Below are positions 13,633-63,714 of a stretch of 64,000 nt of DNA, piece after piece. Under the pieces are notes generated by a model. That model worked only from the letters and a program-made list of their open reading frames with translations. It ran no database searches and had not been told where the DNA came from. Numbering within the stretch: position 1 is the first letter of the stretch; each line of letters begins with the position of its first letter. This stretch comes from Nitrospinaceae bacterium (GTDB lineage Bacteria > Nitrospinota > Nitrospinia > Nitrospinales > Nitrospinaceae), in contig JAJDBF010000070.1 of NCBI GenBank assembly GCA_029261535.1, forward strand, positions 186,001-250,000, written 5' to 3'. A program made the translations under genes and the position numbers.

Positions 13633-15114
13633 ATGACCATTTCCAATAAAATTCTGATCGTCGACGACGAAGAGAGTATTCTCTGGGTATTCAAAAAAGC
13701 GCTCGAAAAACGCGACCTCACGGTTCACACCGCAGAATCTGCCCAGCAGGCACTCGAAAAAATTGAACGCCACGACTACCTGCTGGTATTCACAGACATT
13801 TTCATGGAAGGCATGAGCGGCCTCGATTTGCTAAAAGAATTGAAAATGCGCACGCCGTCTCCGCCGGTGGTGGTGATGACCGCGCAGGACACGATGAACA
13901 ACACCATCGAAGCCATGCGGCAAGGGGCATTCGACTATGTGAGCAAACCCTTCGACCTTGAAGATATCTATGATCTCGTCGACCGGGTAATGGAAAGCAG
14001 TCGCATCCAACCACCTGTGGAAGAGATACCGCCACCGGAAGAATCCTTTTCCGTTGATGCCATCATCGGTCGCAGTAAACACATGCAGGATATTTTCAAA
14101 ACCATCGGCAAAGCCTCGGTCACTGATCTTGCCGTGTTGATCACTGGCGAAAGCGGCACCGGCAAGGAAATGGTGGCGCGCGCCCTGCATTATTATTCGC
14201 ACCGGGTGGACGAAAAATTTATCGCCATCAATTGTGCCGCCATCGCACGCGAATTGCTGGAGTCGGAACTGTTTGGTCACGAAAAAGGTGCCTTCACCGG
14301 AGCGGTCGAATCCAAAAAAGGCAAGTTTGAACTCGCCAACCGGGGCACTCTGTTCCTCGATGAAATCGGTGATATGGAATTGTCCCTGCAGGCAAAAATC
14401 CTGCGTGTTTTGCAGAACAACGAATTTTACCGTGTCGGTGGTCGCGAACCGGTCACGGTCAATGTGCGCATCGTCGCCGCGACCAATCAGAACCTTCAGG
14501 AATTGATGGAAAAGAAATTGTTTCGTGATGACCTGTTTCACCGACTCAACGTCATCCAGATTCCGCTACCCCCCTTGCGCGAACGCATTGAAGATGTGCC
14601 TCACCTGTCCAGTTTTTTTCTGCGCAGGGTGTCGGAAGAGTTGACTCAGGAACCGGTATTTTTATCGCCGGATGTGGATCGCCTGTTCAAGAATTATCAC
14701 TGGCCGGGCAATATCCGCGAGCTTGAAAATGTCATCAAACGCGGTGCGGTGCTGGCCTCGGGCGGGGCCATATTGCTGGAGCATCTGCCGCTGTCATTGC
14801 GTGAAAGCGTCAGCGGTAAATCCGCTGTCAACGAATTCTGGGAACAACATCTCGATCCTCTGGTGCGCGGTTTCCTGCAGAATCATGCCGAGTCCGACCA
14901 CGGCAAGTTATACAACCGGCTGGTGGATGCTCTTGAAAAAAATCTATTCGAACATTTACTGAGGCGGTTCAACGGCAATCAGGTCGCCACCGCCAAGGCA
15001 CTGGGTATCAACCGCAACACGCTCAAAAGAAAAATTGATGCCCTCAATATCGAGCCGAAAAAAAATCGTGGTGTGCACAAACCGGAAGGATCGCCCGATG
15101 ACGGGGCCGTATGA
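13633..15114 (+). CDS. NtrC-type sigma-54 response regulator
   Basis: This 493-residue activator has a receiver domain with phospho-acceptor D55 (VFTDIFMEG), then a sigma-54 AAA+ domain with Walker A GESGTGKE (172-179), the sigma-54-contacting GAFTGA loop (219-224), a DEIGDME Walker B and an arginine-rich sensor region. The end is a Fis-type helix-turn-helix (NQVATAKALGINRNTLKRKI). All key elements are intact. It should activate sigma-54 promoters when phosphorylated by the kinase encoded just before it. Its stop overlaps the next start (ATGA). Confidence 0.95.
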   Translation: MTISNKILIVDDEESILWVFKKALEKRDLTVHTAESAQQALEKIERHDYLLVFTDIFMEGMSGLDLLKELKMRTPSPPVVVMTAQDTMNNTIEAMRQGAFDYVSKPFDLEDIYDLVDRVMESSRIQPPVEEIPPPEESFSVDAIIGRSKHMQDIFKTIGKASVTDLAVLITGESGTGKEMVARALHYYSHRVDEKFIAINCAAIARELLESELFGHEKGAFTGAVESKKGKFELANRGTLFLDEIGDMELSLQAKILRVLQNNEFYRVGGREPVTVNVRIVAATNQNLQELMEKKLFRDDLFHRLNVIQIPLPPLRERIEDVPHLSSFFLRRVSEELTQEPVFLSPDVDRLFKNYHWPGNIRELENVIKRGAVLASGGAILLEHLPLSLRESVSGKSAVNEFWEQHLDPLVRGFLQNHAESDHGKLYNRLVDALEKNLFEHLLRRFNGNQVATAKALGINRNTLKRKIDALNIEPKKNRGVHKPEGSPDDGAV

Positions 15115-16082
15115 AGACCGAGTCAATCGCTTCCTGCAACACCCCGTTCCTGACCCGGACAGAGCTTTTGCGCCAATCTTTTTTTCCCGCCGAGGGTAAG
15201 GTTTCGCGCCAACGGATGGCCTTCGTTACCGGTTTGCATGGTGACGAACTCGAAGGCCTGTACGTTGGTCATCGGCTCCTCAGTTTCCTGCGCGATATTG
15301 AAGAGAACAATCCGTCAGCTCTTAAGGGTGAGGTGCATATCTATCCTGCCGTCAACCCGCCATCGCTGAACCATTCATCGCGACTGTGGCCTGGCCTGGG
15401 CACCGACATGAACCGCACTTTTGGGCTTGCCCGCCCGATGACGCTACCCGCGCAATTTTCCGCCAAGCTACTGGAAGACATCAAAACCCATGCCGACATT
15501 GCAGTGGATTTTCATGCCAGCAATCTGCATCTTCGGGAATTGCCACAGGTCCGGATGATCGACAAATGGTCTTCCTCCCTTATGCCGCTGGCGATGGCAA
15601 CGAATACCGATCTCGTCTGGACGCATCCCATGGCCGACCTGTTCTCAGCCACTCTGGGCTACAACCTGAACAAAGCCAAAGTCGCCACGCTCGTCATTGA
15701 AGCTGGAATCTGCCATCGCATCACCCCCGAATTCCGCGATCAGGTATTCGCCGGATTGATCCACCTCATGAAGCAAACCGGTATTTTAGACGAATCAGTA
15801 TCCGTGCAGGGACGATTGAAAAATCCTCTGAAAGTCAGAGCCAATCAGGTGGTGTCGATCGGTTCCAAACAACCCGGCCTGTTTATTTCAGATGCCCATT
15901 TGGGCGAATTTGTTGGCGCGAACCAACCCGTTGGAAATATTATAGACCCGGTTCGCGGCGAGGTTATGGAGGAAATCCTCGCGCCTGTCTCTGGCCTGCT
16001 GTTCACCCTGCGAGAGCACCCCCTCACTTATGCCGGGTCACTGCTGGCGCGGATCGCCTTGGAAAAGGAACCGCCACCGTGA
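15111..16082 (+). CDS. AstE/AspA-family zinc deacylase (succinylglutamate desuccinylase-like)
   Basis: This is a zinc-dependent amidohydrolase of the M14-related AstE/AspA family. The ligands are in place: H43 and E46 in GLHGDELEG, and H135 in VDFHAS. E197 in VIEAG is the probable catalytic base, and NRTFG matches substrate-binding segments of relatives. The protein has 323 residues. Its C-terminal third has the biotinyl-like beta fold of the wider family (GQPVGNI...PVSGLLFTLREHP). The substrate is not predictable. It is coupled to the NtrC-like gene by a four-base overlap, an unusual partnership. Confidence 0.85.
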   Translation: MKTESIASCNTPFLTRTELLRQSFFPAEGKVSRQRMAFVTGLHGDELEGLYVGHRLLSFLRDIEENNPSALKGEVHIYPAVNPPSLNHSSRLWPGLGTDMNRTFGLARPMTLPAQFSAKLLEDIKTHADIAVDFHASNLHLRELPQVRMIDKWSSSLMPLAMATNTDLVWTHPMADLFSATLGYNLNKAKVATLVIEAGICHRITPEFRDQVFAGLIHLMKQTGILDESVSVQGRLKNPLKVRANQVVSIGSKQPGLFISDAHLGEFVGANQPVGNIIDPVRGEVMEEILAPVSGLLFTLREHPLTYAGSLLARIALEKEPPP

Positions 16083-17053
16083 TGGAACCCTTGTTCGAGG
16101 CCACCTCCCCGCTGGGAGAAACCATCACCCTGTACAAGCGCGTCTGGACCGGATTGGAAGAATCGCCGGAGTCTGTTGCCATCGTCACCGGTCTGCACGG
16201 GCACAACCTGACCGGACTTTACACCCTCATGCGTCTCGCCGCTTTTCTCGATCAGGTCGCCGCTGGTAATGAGAGCGGCTACCAGTTGGTCGGCAACATC
16301 CAATTGTTTCCTGTTGTTCATTTTAGAGCGATGGAAGCCGGCGCACCGGTCTGGAATTTCGACCACCTCGATACCGATGTCGCGTTTCCCGGAACCCTTG
16401 AAGGCGAACTGACAGAAAAATTGTGCAACACCCTTCTCCAACACACAGTTCGGTCAGACACCGCGATCGTCCTGAAAGGACCGGAACGGTGGCGACAGGA
16501 AATGCCTCATGTCAGTATTTTAAAATCCGATGGAACATTGAAAAAACTGACGAATGCTTTTGGGCTGGAAGTCGCCTTGCTGGAAGAGAACAACCCGTTA
16601 GCAAATTTGCAACTGCTCAAACAATGGCAGGGTTGTGATCTAAAAGCTTTCGCCATTGGCACCGGCGGCACCGCAGTACTGGATAGGATTTGCGGAGACA
16701 GGCTATTCGATGGCCTGCTGAATTTTCTTTTGACTACCGGGCTATTGACCCATCCTGAAAAAAAAAGCGACAAAACCGACACCCCACTCTACGCAGTCGA
16801 TGCAGAAAGGGTGGTGGCTTGTAATCAGGCTGGATTTTTTCTGAGTGAAGTAGCAACCGGCACTGCGGTACAAGGCGGGCAAAAATTAGGGGAAGTGCAG
16901 GGGCTTTACGATGGCAAAACTCTTGAAGAAATCATAGCACCGGAGGCAGGCGTGCTGTTTGCCTTGCGCCATCATCCGCTGGTCTGTTCCGGGGAACCAG
17001 TGGTCTGGCTCCTCACAAAAAAATATTCGCGCTGGGCCCGGTTTTTGGGATGA
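16082..17053 (+). CDS. AstE-like paralogue with lost zinc ligands
   Basis: The protein has the same length and architecture as the preceding gene and is probably its tandem duplicate. The first zinc motif reads GLHGHNLTG, so the glutamate is replaced by N42. The third ligand region DFHAS has become VLKGPE, and the VIEAG base region reads AIGTGG. Three of the key residues are therefore gone, while the overall fold (GLHG, the NFDHLDTDVAF segment, C-terminal PEAGVLFALRHHP) is kept. It is probably a non-catalytic partner or ligand-binding subunit. The ATG overlaps the preceding stop by one base; a GTG one codon upstream is an alternative. Confidence 0.75.
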   Translation: MEPLFEATSPLGETITLYKRVWTGLEESPESVAIVTGLHGHNLTGLYTLMRLAAFLDQVAAGNESGYQLVGNIQLFPVVHFRAMEAGAPVWNFDHLDTDVAFPGTLEGELTEKLCNTLLQHTVRSDTAIVLKGPERWRQEMPHVSILKSDGTLKKLTNAFGLEVALLEENNPLANLQLLKQWQGCDLKAFAIGTGGTAVLDRICGDRLFDGLLNFLLTTGLLTHPEKKSDKTDTPLYAVDAERVVACNQAGFFLSEVATGTAVQGGQKLGEVQGLYDGKTLEEIIAPEAGVLFALRHHPLVCSGEPVVWLLTKKYSRWARFLG

Positions 17054-17347: not shown

Positions 17348-17512
17348 ATCGTTGCCTCTTCTGCCCTGATTGAATGGTGTGTCATAACTTACCGGTCACC
17401 CGATTATAAGGACAAACCCTCTTTAAAATCAATCACTTTCATCGACAGCCTCCTTCTCACAAACCTTGTACCTCGGGCGCGATTGGGCTAGACTGTGCGC
17501 GAAAGAGGTCCA

Positions 17513-18283
17513 GTGCCCATAATATTAACAGGTTACCGTTTACCGTGTGATGACGTGAGTTTGGTTCTCGATCAAAATGGGACAGGCTATCGGTTTTCCA
17601 TGGAGCCCTTTCTACTGGCTGATTTTGCCCGACCGCCGGTCGGAAGCCGATGTCTGGAAATTGGCACCGGTTGCGCCATCATTTCGTTACTCCTGCTCAC
17701 CCGGCAGAGGGAATTTTTTATCACGGCCATTGAAATACAAGAATCTCTGGCACAGAAAGCGCAATCTAATTTAATAGAGAACGGAGCGCAGGATCGGGTC
17801 GAACTTATCCGCGCGGATTTTCTGGAATGGTCCAAGGCACAACCGGATGAAATTTTTGATTGGGTCATCAGCAATCCACCCTATCGAAAACTCAACAGCG
17901 GACGCATCAACCCGGATCGCGAAAAAGCCCTGGCCCGGCATGAGATCAGCCTGACCCTTTCAGCGTTGGTCGACCGGAGTGCGCGACATCTGAAACCCGG
18001 CGGCACGCTGGCACTGGTCTACCCGATGGAGCGTCTGCCGGAAGTCAAAAAAACGCTAATGGACAAGGGGCTGGAACCCATCCGCATCCGGCAAGTGTGC
18101 GGAAATAAAAAACTGCCCGCACGATTTTTCCTGATCCTGGCACAACAGGGCAAAAGTGATAACCCGTGTGAGGAAGACACTTTTTTTATTTATGAAGAAG
18201 ACGGTGCTTACACCTCCGCCATGAAATCAATCTATGAATCCTTTAATTATACTGGCCGGTCCCACCGCTACCGGGAAGAGTGA
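17513..18283 (+). CDS. TrmN6-like class I methyltransferase
   Basis: This is probably an N6-adenine methyltransferase of the TrmN6 (YfiC) type, which modifies A37 of tRNA-Val. Evidence is the GYRFSMEPFLLADF lead, the SAM motif CLEIGTGCAIISLLLL, the acidic IEIQE and the catalytic motif NPPY, followed by the HEISLTLSALV segment typical of the family. I favour the GTG at 17513 (AGAGG just upstream); a GTG at 17495 adds six residues. It overlaps the start of the miaA frame by 50 bases, so two tRNA-modification genes are coupled. Confidence 0.8.
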   Translation: MPIILTGYRLPCDDVSLVLDQNGTGYRFSMEPFLLADFARPPVGSRCLEIGTGCAIISLLLLTRQREFFITAIEIQESLAQKAQSNLIENGAQDRVELIRADFLEWSKAQPDEIFDWVISNPPYRKLNSGRINPDREKALARHEISLTLSALVDRSARHLKPGGTLALVYPMERLPEVKKTLMDKGLEPIRIRQVCGNKKLPARFFLILAQQGKSDNPCEEDTFFIYEEDGAYTSAMKSIYESFNYTGRSHRYREE

Positions 18284-21200
18284 AACCGCAGTAGAGCTGG
18301 CGGAATCGCTTGAATCGGAAATCATCAGCGCGGATTCGATGCAGGTCTACAAACATTTTGACATCGGCACCGCCAAGCCTACAGCTGAATTGCGGGCACG
18401 GGTGCCGCATCACCTGATCGATTGCCTGGAACCGCAGGAAGAATTCACAGCGCACGATTTCAAGCAACGAGCCGAAACTGTCATTAGAGACTTGCATCAG
18501 AAAAACCGGATTCCTGTTCTTGCCGGTGGCACCGGCCTCTACCTGCAAGTGTTGATGGGAAATCTCGACTGCGGCGTTCAGGTGGATCCTGAATTGCGTG
18601 ACCGCGTTCGCCAGGAGATCGAAGAGAAAGGCCCGGAAGCACTGCACGCCGAACTCCGCCGGGTCGATCCCGTCATGGCAGAAAAAATCCAGCCGACCGA
18701 TCCGTCACGCATTGAACGGGCGTTGACTGTGTTCCGCCAAACCGGGATTCCCCTGTCGCAATACCATGAAGAAGACGCTCGCTCCACCAGTAATTATGAT
18801 GTCCATTGTTTTGTCATGACCATGGATCGGACACGACTCTACGAAACCGTCAACCGGCGCGTGGATCAAATGATCGAACAGGGATGGCTTGACGAAGTCC
18901 GAGGGCTTCTGGATCGAGGCATTGCCGAGACTTGCAAACCGTTTCAGGGAATCGGCTATTCCCAATTGCTCCAGGTGATCAGGAAGCAAACCGGTCTTGA
19001 AGAAGCGGTGGACCAGATCAAACGCGATACCCGGCGTTACGCCAAACGACAGATCACCTGGTTCAAGAAAAGTCCCGGAGCGCAAGCCATCGACGTGGGC
19101 CCTGAAGAAACAGCGCGAACATTAAAAAATAAAATCCTGTCGAAAATTCCGGGAGCCCTTGCCTCCCTGTCCACCCTGCTACTACTGGTCTCGCTTTCGG
19201 TAACCACCGCTGTTGCCGGGCCGCTTCAGAATGCTTCACGTTACCTGAAATACAACAAACCCAAAGCCGCCTGCGAAACACTGGCCCCCCTGCTCTCGGA
19301 GCCAAGCGACAGCAAACAAAAATCCCGCGCCGGATTTTTAATGGGGCGTTGCCTGTCCGCGCAAAATCAGCACAGAGAAGCGGCGGTTTATTTTCAACAA
19401 TCGCTGACGGCCCTGTCCGAGCTTGAAGATTATACGCGGCTGGAACTGGCAAAAATCAACATGACCACTGGCGATGCCAAAAAAGCGTTTGAGGAAACCT
19501 CCTACCTGCTACAAAAGTTTCCGCACTCTCGCATTTCCCCCCAGGCCGAACAATTACGTGCCAAAGCCTTGCAGGGAATGGGCCAGACCGAACAGGCAAT
19601 AATTTTTCTGGAAGAGGCGATCACACGTTTAACCGGGGACAAGGGCGAGGCAGATTTTGCATTTATTATTCCGGAACTCATTCTGCAGGCGGGCAGGTTC
19701 CAGGAAACGGAAAAATTGCCCAGTCGGGCCTATTTAAATTACCGGAAAATTTTTGTGGAATACCCCAACCACGACTCGGCTAAAATCGCCAATAACGCCA
19801 TCAAACGGATTGTGAAAAATCAGGCCTTGGCACCGCCTTCGTTAACCGAACGTGAATTGACAAAGCGCGTGGGTCGGCTGTTCAAATCGGCGCGATACAA
19901 AGAGGCCTTGCAAAATCTGAACACTTTCAAAAAGGAAGCGCGGGGTAAAAAACTTCCGGTGAAGTGGTATTTCAATATGGCGACGGCTTATAACGGCGTC
20001 CGGAAACGCCAGTTGGTGGTGACCGTTTTAAAAGATTTCATCAAAGCCTATCCTAATCACAACAAGGTTCAGCAGGCCCGGTTTAAAATCGGCCGCACAC
20101 TGTGGAATCTGGGGCGCAACGGCGAGGCTAAAAAGTTTTTTCGCATCGTCCTAAAAAACACCTCGAAAAAATCCTGGAAAATCACCTCACGTTTTTATCT
20201 GGGTCGAGTGCATGAGAACAGCCGGCAGTATGAACCGGCAAAAAAATATTACAACGAATTGATCGCTTTAGGCGGGAGCAGTTCTTACCTTGAGAAAGCC
20301 GCCTTTCGGCTGGGGTGGATCGCTTTCAGGACAAAACATTTTGGCGAGGGGATTGCACAATTCCAGAAGAACATCGCACGCTGGCAGGGGAGCATCTGGA
20401 CGGCAAAAAATTTATTCTGGTTGGCAAAGCTTTATGAATTGTCGGGAAAGAAACTGGACGCGCTCAAGACGTTCGCCTCCCTGCTGGAACAGTTTCCCTA
20501 CACCTATTATGGCGTACGTGCCGAACAAAAACTGGTTCTGCTCCTGCAGGAACTCCCCCCCGACACCCGGCCTCGCATGATAAAAACAGGTTTCACCCCG
20601 CCGGAGGAAAGCCCGACAAGCCTGAGTCGCTCCCTGACTGAACAGGAAAAATTCCATCATGTCCGCGCCATCACCTTGTCGGAGATGGGGCTCTACCAAT
20701 CAGCCCGACTGGAAGCACGCAAAACCGTTTCCACCCTGCGCAAAAACCTGTCCGGCGTTTTATGGGCATCCAGCCTGTACATCAAAAGCCGCGCTTACCC
20801 GGAAGCCATGCGGGTGCTCTATATGTACCGCGACTTCAAGCAACCTTCCGGAGAAAAGGAATTGCCGCTGGCCTTTTGGAAAAACTTTTTCCCGCTGGCC
20901 TACTTCGACATGATCAAAAAACCCGCCGCCACGTATTCAGTCGACCCGTTTTTTGTCGATGGCCTGATTCGACAGGAAAGCCTGTTCGACGATGACATCG
21001 TCTCGCCTGCCGGTGCCCGCGGGTTGATGCAGATCATGCCCGAAACGGGGCGGCGTCTGTATTCAGCCGGAAGTGGTGATGCCGGTTACGATCCGGAAAC
21101 TCTGTTCGATGCCAGAGTCAACGTGCGTCTTGGCATCAAGTTCCTCGGTCAGCTCGCCAAACGATTTGGCAAAAAGGGCATGTACCTGCTCATCTCTTAC

Positions 21201-21392
21201 AACGCCGGGCCGCATGTCATGGAAAAATGGCTCAAGCGATTTGCGCACATCCAGGATGAAGATGTGTTCATCGAGTCTATTCCTTATCCAGAGACTCGAG
21301 GCTACGTCAAAAGGGTCATGCGCAATTATGGAATTTATCGTCGCCTCTACGCAGACTCCATCACCAGCCAGGAAAAAAACAGGGTCTTTTAA
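18234..21392 (+). CDS. miaA: MiaA fused in frame to a Slt-type lytic transglycosylase
   Basis: One open frame of 1052 codons joins two proteins. Residues 1 to about 300 are tRNA dimethylallyltransferase MiaA, which isopentenylates A37: P-loop GPTATGKS (8-15), DSMQVYKHFDIGTAKP, AGGTGLYLQ, and the KRDTRRYAKRQITWFK end. Residues about 303-330 form a hydrophobic stretch (ALASLSTLLLLVSLSVTTAVAG) like a signal peptide or anchor. TPR-like helical repeats follow up to about 880, then a lytic transglycosylase domain with catalytic E915 in IRQESLFDDD, GARGLMQIMP and SYNAGPH. No stop codon separates the parts. An internal GTG at 19095 (residue 288) could start a separate secreted Slt with a good signal peptide. 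Fusion, or two products from one frame, are both possible. Confidence 0.88.
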   Translation: MNPLIILAGPTATGKSETAVELAESLESEIISADSMQVYKHFDIGTAKPTAELRARVPHHLIDCLEPQEEFTAHDFKQRAETVIRDLHQKNRIPVLAGGTGLYLQVLMGNLDCGVQVDPELRDRVRQEIEEKGPEALHAELRRVDPVMAEKIQPTDPSRIERALTVFRQTGIPLSQYHEEDARSTSNYDVHCFVMTMDRTRLYETVNRRVDQMIEQGWLDEVRGLLDRGIAETCKPFQGIGYSQLLQVIRKQTGLEEAVDQIKRDTRRYAKRQITWFKKSPGAQAIDVGPEETARTLKNKILSKIPGALASLSTLLLLVSLSVTTAVAGPLQNASRYLKYNKPKAACETLAPLLSEPSDSKQKSRAGFLMGRCLSAQNQHREAAVYFQQSLTALSELEDYTRLELAKINMTTGDAKKAFEETSYLLQKFPHSRISPQAEQLRAKALQGMGQTEQAIIFLEEAITRLTGDKGEADFAFIIPELILQAGRFQETEKLPSRAYLNYRKIFVEYPNHDSAKIANNAIKRIVKNQALAPPSLTERELTKRVGRLFKSARYKEALQNLNTFKKEARGKKLPVKWYFNMATAYNGVRKRQLVVTVLKDFIKAYPNHNKVQQARFKIGRTLWNLGRNGEAKKFFRIVLKNTSKKSWKITSRFYLGRVHENSRQYEPAKKYYNELIALGGSSSYLEKAAFRLGWIAFRTKHFGEGIAQFQKNIARWQGSIWTAKNLFWLAKLYELSGKKLDALKTFASLLEQFPYTYYGVRAEQKLVLLLQELPPDTRPRMIKTGFTPPEESPTSLSRSLTEQEKFHHVRAITLSEMGLYQSARLEARKTVSTLRKNLSGVLWASSLYIKSRAYPEAMRVLYMYRDFKQPSGEKELPLAFWKNFFPLAYFDMIKKPAATYSVDPFFVDGLIRQESLFDDDIVSPAGARGLMQIMPETGRRLYSAGSGDAGYDPETLFDARVNVRLGIKFLGQLAKRFGKKGMYLLISYNAGPHVMEKWLKRFAHIQDEDVFIESIPYPETRGYVKRVMRNYGIYRRLYADSITSQEKNRVF

Positions 21393-63031: not shown

Positions 63032-63714
63032 TCGATCGCATTGAAGAGTCGGCCCCAGCGCACATCACCACAGAAAAAGCAATCGCCCGTAGTTTCCCAG
63101 GACCAGTATATCCGGCGCGCCTTCCCCCGAATTTTTTTGATATCCAGGAATCCCCAGAAGCGGCTGTCCTGACTGTTTTCACGGTTGTCCCCCATCATGA
63201 AAACATGGCCTTCAGGAATCCGGACCGGCCCGAAATTATCGCGCGGTTCTTCAAAGCCTGCGGACTCGGTGTGGTTGGCAAAGGGGTCCTCGATTTTTTT
63301 CCCATTGATATAGACCTGTTGCATGCGGATTTCCAAAACCTCACCGGGAAGGCCGATGACCCGCTTGATGTAATCCTTGCTTTCATCTCTCGGGAATTTA
63401 AAGACAAGCACATCGTAACGTTCGGGAGTTTCTTCAAAAAACACGATGTCCGAAAACAAACGCATGTTCAGGCCAATTATTTCATTGGGAACATGCACCC
63501 CGTAACTGTACTTGGTCACCAGAATATGGTCACCGATCTGCAGGGTTTCTTTCATGGAACCGGAAGGAATCTTGAAAGCCTGCACGAAAAAAGTGCGGAT
63601 AAACATCGCCAGCAAAAATGCCACCAGCAGGGCTTCGATGAGTTCCCGCACCTGGCCCTTCTCTGGCTTCTCCGTCTCTTCGGCAATGTCCTTGCTGGCA
63701 GTTTTATTTGACAT
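63028..63714 (-). CDS. lepB: Signal peptidase I
   Basis: This enzyme cleaves signal peptides at the outer face of the inner membrane. The 228-residue protein has one N-terminal span (about 27-46), the nucleophile S53 (PSGSMKETL), the general base K117 ([12 protein letters not shown]) and the box [14 protein letters not shown]. It overlaps the preceding lepA gene by 11 bases, a common neighbour. Confidence 0.95.

Follow-up and report, generated by a model that had tools for sequence, protein, structure and literature searches.

The stretch of DNA analyzed here (64 kb; the window) contains a single open reading frame in which MiaA, a widespread soluble tRNA modification enzyme, runs without interruption into a lytic transglycosylase, which raises the question of whether this is a genuine gene fusion and, if so, what becomes of its product. 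The frame comprises 1052 codons on the forward strand (18234-21392, ATG to TAA) with no stop inside. The first-pass annotation of this DNA had described a 1052-codon frame leading from MiaA through TPR repeats to an SLT domain with E915, and both ORF reading and profile matches bear this out exactly. It had also noticed a signal-like segment at residues 303-330. The segment is indeed present, but it is better placed at residues 308-328 (19155-19217), because residues 280-307 (19071-19154) still belong to MiaA and form its C-terminal strand and helix. Complete MiaA accounts for residues 1-307 of the 1052-aa protein, with the catalytic part at residues 1-279 (18234-19070). Downstream of the signal-like segment lie a TPR superhelix (residues 329-880; 19218-20873) and the SLT lytic transglycosylase domain (residues 881-1043; 20874-21362), all in the same orientation.

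Profile and sequence searches over 77 genomes of the phylum Nitrospinota, 64 of which belong to the order of the window (Nitrospinales), revealed one frame with MiaA and SLT parts in 48 of the 64. In ten more genomes of the order the gene is truncated at a contig end or, in G062, broken within MiaA, yet a single frame crosses the junction. Outside these 58 informative genomes are G029, cut before the junction; G044, with a MiaA fragment only; and G020, G033, G035, and G051, draft assemblies without a MiaA match. An uninterrupted frame in relatives, which the first-pass annotation had named as the point to check, is thus found in 58/58 informative genomes of the order, with identities of 38 to 79% and loss seen in none. 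Frames read directly from the DNA at 30 loci were unbroken from MiaA into SLT; the apparent internal stops in some matches must therefore sit in alignment tails beyond the real C terminus and were discarded. The probability that an assembly or sequencing artifact deleted a stop between two genes is negligible, since dozens of independently assembled genomes have this open frame, and G002, G017, and G031 among them each consist of a single contig; the relatives' open frames likewise exclude the frameshift or missed stop that had been considered initially. Genome G045 carries two full-length copies of the fusion (C39 and C12), for which paralogy, strain mixture, or contamination is possible. Beyond the phylum, control samples with MiaA matches in about 200 genomes contained no C-terminally extended MiaA of the size of the fusion; their MiaA frames were mostly 300 to 460 aa long, with a few of 490 to 552 aa. 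The three longest control frames were rejected as spurious upstream (5′) extensions in DNA of 69 to 75% GC. No description of a miaA-slt fusion was found in the literature searched.

In the same class outside the order, miaA and slt are separate in all 11 informative genomes and, where complete, encode a MiaA of 310 to 362 aa and, in its own frame, an Slt of ∼740 to 825 aa. The two genes adjoin in the same direction in 8/11 genomes and lie on different contigs in 3/11. Eight of these outgroup loci (L057 to L062, L069, and L070) hold the same two families in the same order and direction as the fusion but, unlike it, stop after MiaA, with Slt in another frame or beyond a gap and bearing its own signal peptide. 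At one of them (L061:1323-1370), the miaA stop overlaps the slt start as TAATG, an arrangement that is a plausible picture of the precursor before fusion. All fused sequences form one clade in both the MiaA tree (SH-aLRT 99) and the Slt tree (SH-aLRT 100), which were built with a quick method and include some long branches on the Slt side. Because both trees agree on this clade, the fusion appears to have arisen once. A single event, which would have joined adjoining miaA and slt genes at the base of the order and was followed by no loss in the genomes seen, is the simplest history.

The MiaA half is recognized by the equivalog model TIGR00174 with 310 bits (cutoff, 148.65) over residues 4-284 and model positions 1 to 281 of 288, and by the Pfam IPPT family (PF01715) at residues 37-279. 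Like the enzymes of E. coli (2zm5/3foz) and B. halodurans (3exa), it is a full-length domain with the P-loop (GPTATGKS; residues 9-16), DSMQVY, GGTGLY (98-103), and AKRQ.TWF (AKRQITWF; 270-277) motifs, as well as D34. In an alignment of 43 proteins, two pairs of which are duplicates of one record, K15, D34, R159, R162, G241-Y242, and K271-R272-Q273 are invariant. Against the Protein Data Bank, the first part of the protein matched MiaA enzymes by sequence and the last part matched Slt70-type enzymes, and Foldseek aligned the AlphaFold model with E. coli MiaA at a TM score of 0.80 on the target (2zm5). With its catalytic motifs intact, the MiaA half is predicted to be a tRNA dimethylallyltransferase. 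As usual for MiaA, the gene occurs in a single copy per genome together with MiaB, which acts after MiaA and is present in the window genome. Unlike stand-alone MiaA, the fused protein runs past the C-terminal helix without a stop, into an internal signal and then another enzyme. It therefore falls outside the description of MiaA as a stand-alone soluble protein of ∼310 aa in all 58 informative genomes of the order, which is a matter of architecture rather than of the catalytic definition of the family. The Nitrospinales genomes searched yielded no unfused MiaA, so the fused protein must supply A37 isopentenylation, if this occurs. Short MiaA pieces in the order lie at contig ends or at the frame break inside MiaA in G062; the apparent short MiaA frames of G029 and G046 are of the former kind.

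The C-terminal half matched PF01464 (SLT) at residues 893-1006 with an E value of 2.7e-22 and 79 bits (cutoff, 21.3), and Pfam TPR families matched between the MiaA and SLT parts. The catalytic-type Glu of RQES is residue 915 (codon at 20976-20978); it is, along with GLMQIMP and YNAGP, invariant or nearly so in the 43 relatives. The AlphaFold model (mean pLDDT of 76.5, with only 16 sequences in its alignment) shows the MiaA fold, a low-confidence hinge at residues 308-340, and a TPR array with helices at residues 330-867 (mostly pLDDT 70 to 94), followed by an SLT part of low confidence. In Foldseek, TPR-SLT matched Slt70 structures (1qte, 1sly, and 5ohu) with a TM score of 0.54 on the Slt70 length. 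As in Slt70 of E. coli (1qte/1sly) and P. aeruginosa (5ohu), a helical superhelix precedes an SLT domain with RQES, GLMQIMP, and YNAG, and the modeled alpha superhelix running into this domain corresponds to an Slt70-like fold. Unlike Slt70, however, the protein is TPR rich and carries its export signal internally, behind MiaA. The curated cutoffs are missed by far (Slt70 equivalog PRK11619, 101.6 of 536 bits; NF047373, 153.8 of 234 bits).

The anatomy of the junction bears on how the two halves could end up on different sides of the membrane. Residues 280-307, which include AQAIDVGPEETARTLKNKILSKIPG, align with the last strand and helix of unfused MiaA from the same class, and the hydrophobic core begins close to the stop position of unfused MiaA, so that the last helix of MiaA also provides the n-region for the signal. 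The core resembles unfused Slt signal peptides in length and hydrophobicity, with uncharged runs mostly of 13 to 18 residues in the fused proteins. A small-x-A site follows it in 42/43 relatives, versus 26 expected from residue shuffles, and is weak in a few (L072, L020, and L021); in the window protein, the predicted signal peptidase I site is AVA(328)|G(329). Judged by motif, the 42 proteins thus combine the n-region, hydrophobic core, and small-x-small site of signal peptidase I substrates. A lipoprotein signal was discarded, as the Cys found in some relatives is neither conserved nor positioned where the core ends. The genome has signal peptidase I genes, one of which lies in the window on the reverse strand (63097-63639; TIGR02227, 185 bits). 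Over 45 close pairs, dN/dS was 0.23 for the linker (residues 280-307) and 0.27 for the hydrophobic segment, whereas synonymous differences (0.46 and 0.47, respectively) stayed within the range of the flanks (0.42 to 0.52). These low ratios with no synonymous dip indicate selection on the protein, with no trace of a hidden nucleotide signal. The stop-free junction and the selection on the linker lend indirect support to translation as a single chain. Since the continuous frame is conserved across the order, each MiaA chain would be made joined to the signal and Slt.

Two alternatives would uncouple synthesis of the halves. The first-pass annotation had proposed a separate secreted Slt starting at an in-frame GTG (V288; 19095-19097). 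This codon has a moderate Shine-Dalgarno-like match in the window (−5.6 kcal/mol), and the column of residue 280 holds ATG or GTG in 32/43 relatives, but the column-280 codons are devoid of a Shine-Dalgarno-like match and the window has Ser there, while the GTG itself is absent in the nearest relatives, including the 79%-identical sister, and reappears in column 288 only in the distant L007, again without such a match. Furthermore, in-frame ATG, GTG, and TTG are all absent from residues 283-312 in 17/43 relatives, a start with a strong Shine-Dalgarno-like match occurs within this interval in only 3/43, and the synonymous constraint that would accompany an internal start is not seen. The proposed GTG start is thus not upheld, and we regard it as highly unlikely that Slt is made separately from this or another internal start with MiaA-Slt read-through as a by-product. 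Even then MiaA would stay fused, because no stop follows it. Programmed −1 frameshifting at A_AAA_AAT (codons 298-299), which would yield free MiaA beside the fusion, can be given hardly any credence: the heptamer (19124-19133), with its immediate −1 frame TAA, occurs in the window and in the distant L072 but is missing at this place from the other relatives, and slippery heptamers of any kind are found in the linker in 14/43, which matches the background rate of 0.35. A shift at the window heptamer would release MiaA near its natural end.

We therefore turn to the fate of the whole chain and favor, as reasonably probable, a fixed fusion of single origin that is translated as one chain, whose internal signal exports TPR-SLT and is probably cut by signal peptidase I. 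From the anatomy of the protein we infer that the MiaA half would fold in the cytoplasm and that the internal signal, right behind its last helix, would lead the nascent chain to the Sec translocon, so that the TPR-SLT half would be exported across the inner membrane. Signal peptidase I would then probably cleave behind AVA(328). The periplasm would thereby gain a soluble Slt70-like transglycosylase, and MiaA would keep a C-terminal membrane tail of ∼20 residues as its tether, unless this is trimmed later. That the protein instead stays whole, with MiaA inside, TPR-SLT in the periplasm, and one transmembrane helix between them, whether or not the two activities are coupled, is a less likely reading that nonetheless carries real weight. 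All members share one frame, the fusion is lost in no informative genome of the order, and the hydrophobic segment keeps its position and is subject to purifying selection, which fits an uncut anchor as well as a signal. Cleavage is called probable from a short motif that alanine-rich sequence favors, and an export signal behind 300 folded residues is unusual for signal peptidase substrates, which counts against cleavage. Conversely, the signal-peptidase-like site directly behind the core in nearly all relatives, the resemblance of the short uncharged runs to cleavable signals, and the cleavable-type signals of the unfused homologues argue against an intact protein. The initial proposal that the fusion places MiaA at the inner face of the membrane is accordingly sustained as far as one conserved frame through the internal signal is concerned, but the same 42/43 sites speak against lasting wholeness. 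It is rather improbable that a whole membrane-spanning enzyme couples tRNA A37 modification to periplasmic peptidoglycan cleavage, with one activity sensing or placing the other. The fusion may link tRNA modification functionally to wall turnover, and a neutral operon fusion, retained since its product is properly processed, suits the data equally.

Processing of the favored kind, i.e., cleavage at the internal signal, has precedents. The bacterial cytochrome b/c1 precursor FbcH is a polyprotein that signal peptidase cleaves at an internal signal. PMC5402940 describes the same for the viral core-E1 polyprotein. In both systems, as in MiaA-Slt, a protein of one side of the membrane is joined to a translocated protein via an internal signal peptide; unlike in them, the parts of MiaA-Slt are unrelated, and its cleavage is a prediction.

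Upstream of the fusion, a TrmN6-like methyltransferase gene (17495-18283, forward strand) overlaps the MiaA start by 50 nt, and most of the order retains an overlap of ∼35 to 74 nt. Its match to the TrmN6 model is under the cutoff (87 of 350 bits); if the gene is truly TrmN6, both its product and MiaA act on N6 of tRNA A37. Further upstream (15111-17053), two adjoining genes show weak similarity to AstE/AspA or DoeB deacylases; hardly any model recognizes the second.

In such a protein, automatic annotation would probably label just one of the two halves. Across the whole order, the sole form of MiaA is one that has to interact with the membrane machinery during synthesis. If MiaA remains tethered, tRNA modification would be membrane localized in Nitrospinales; if the chain is cut, it would be a cellular polyprotein of two enzymes whose processing takes place at an internal export signal. 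In both cases, disruption of one gene would hit both translation fidelity and cell-wall turnover.
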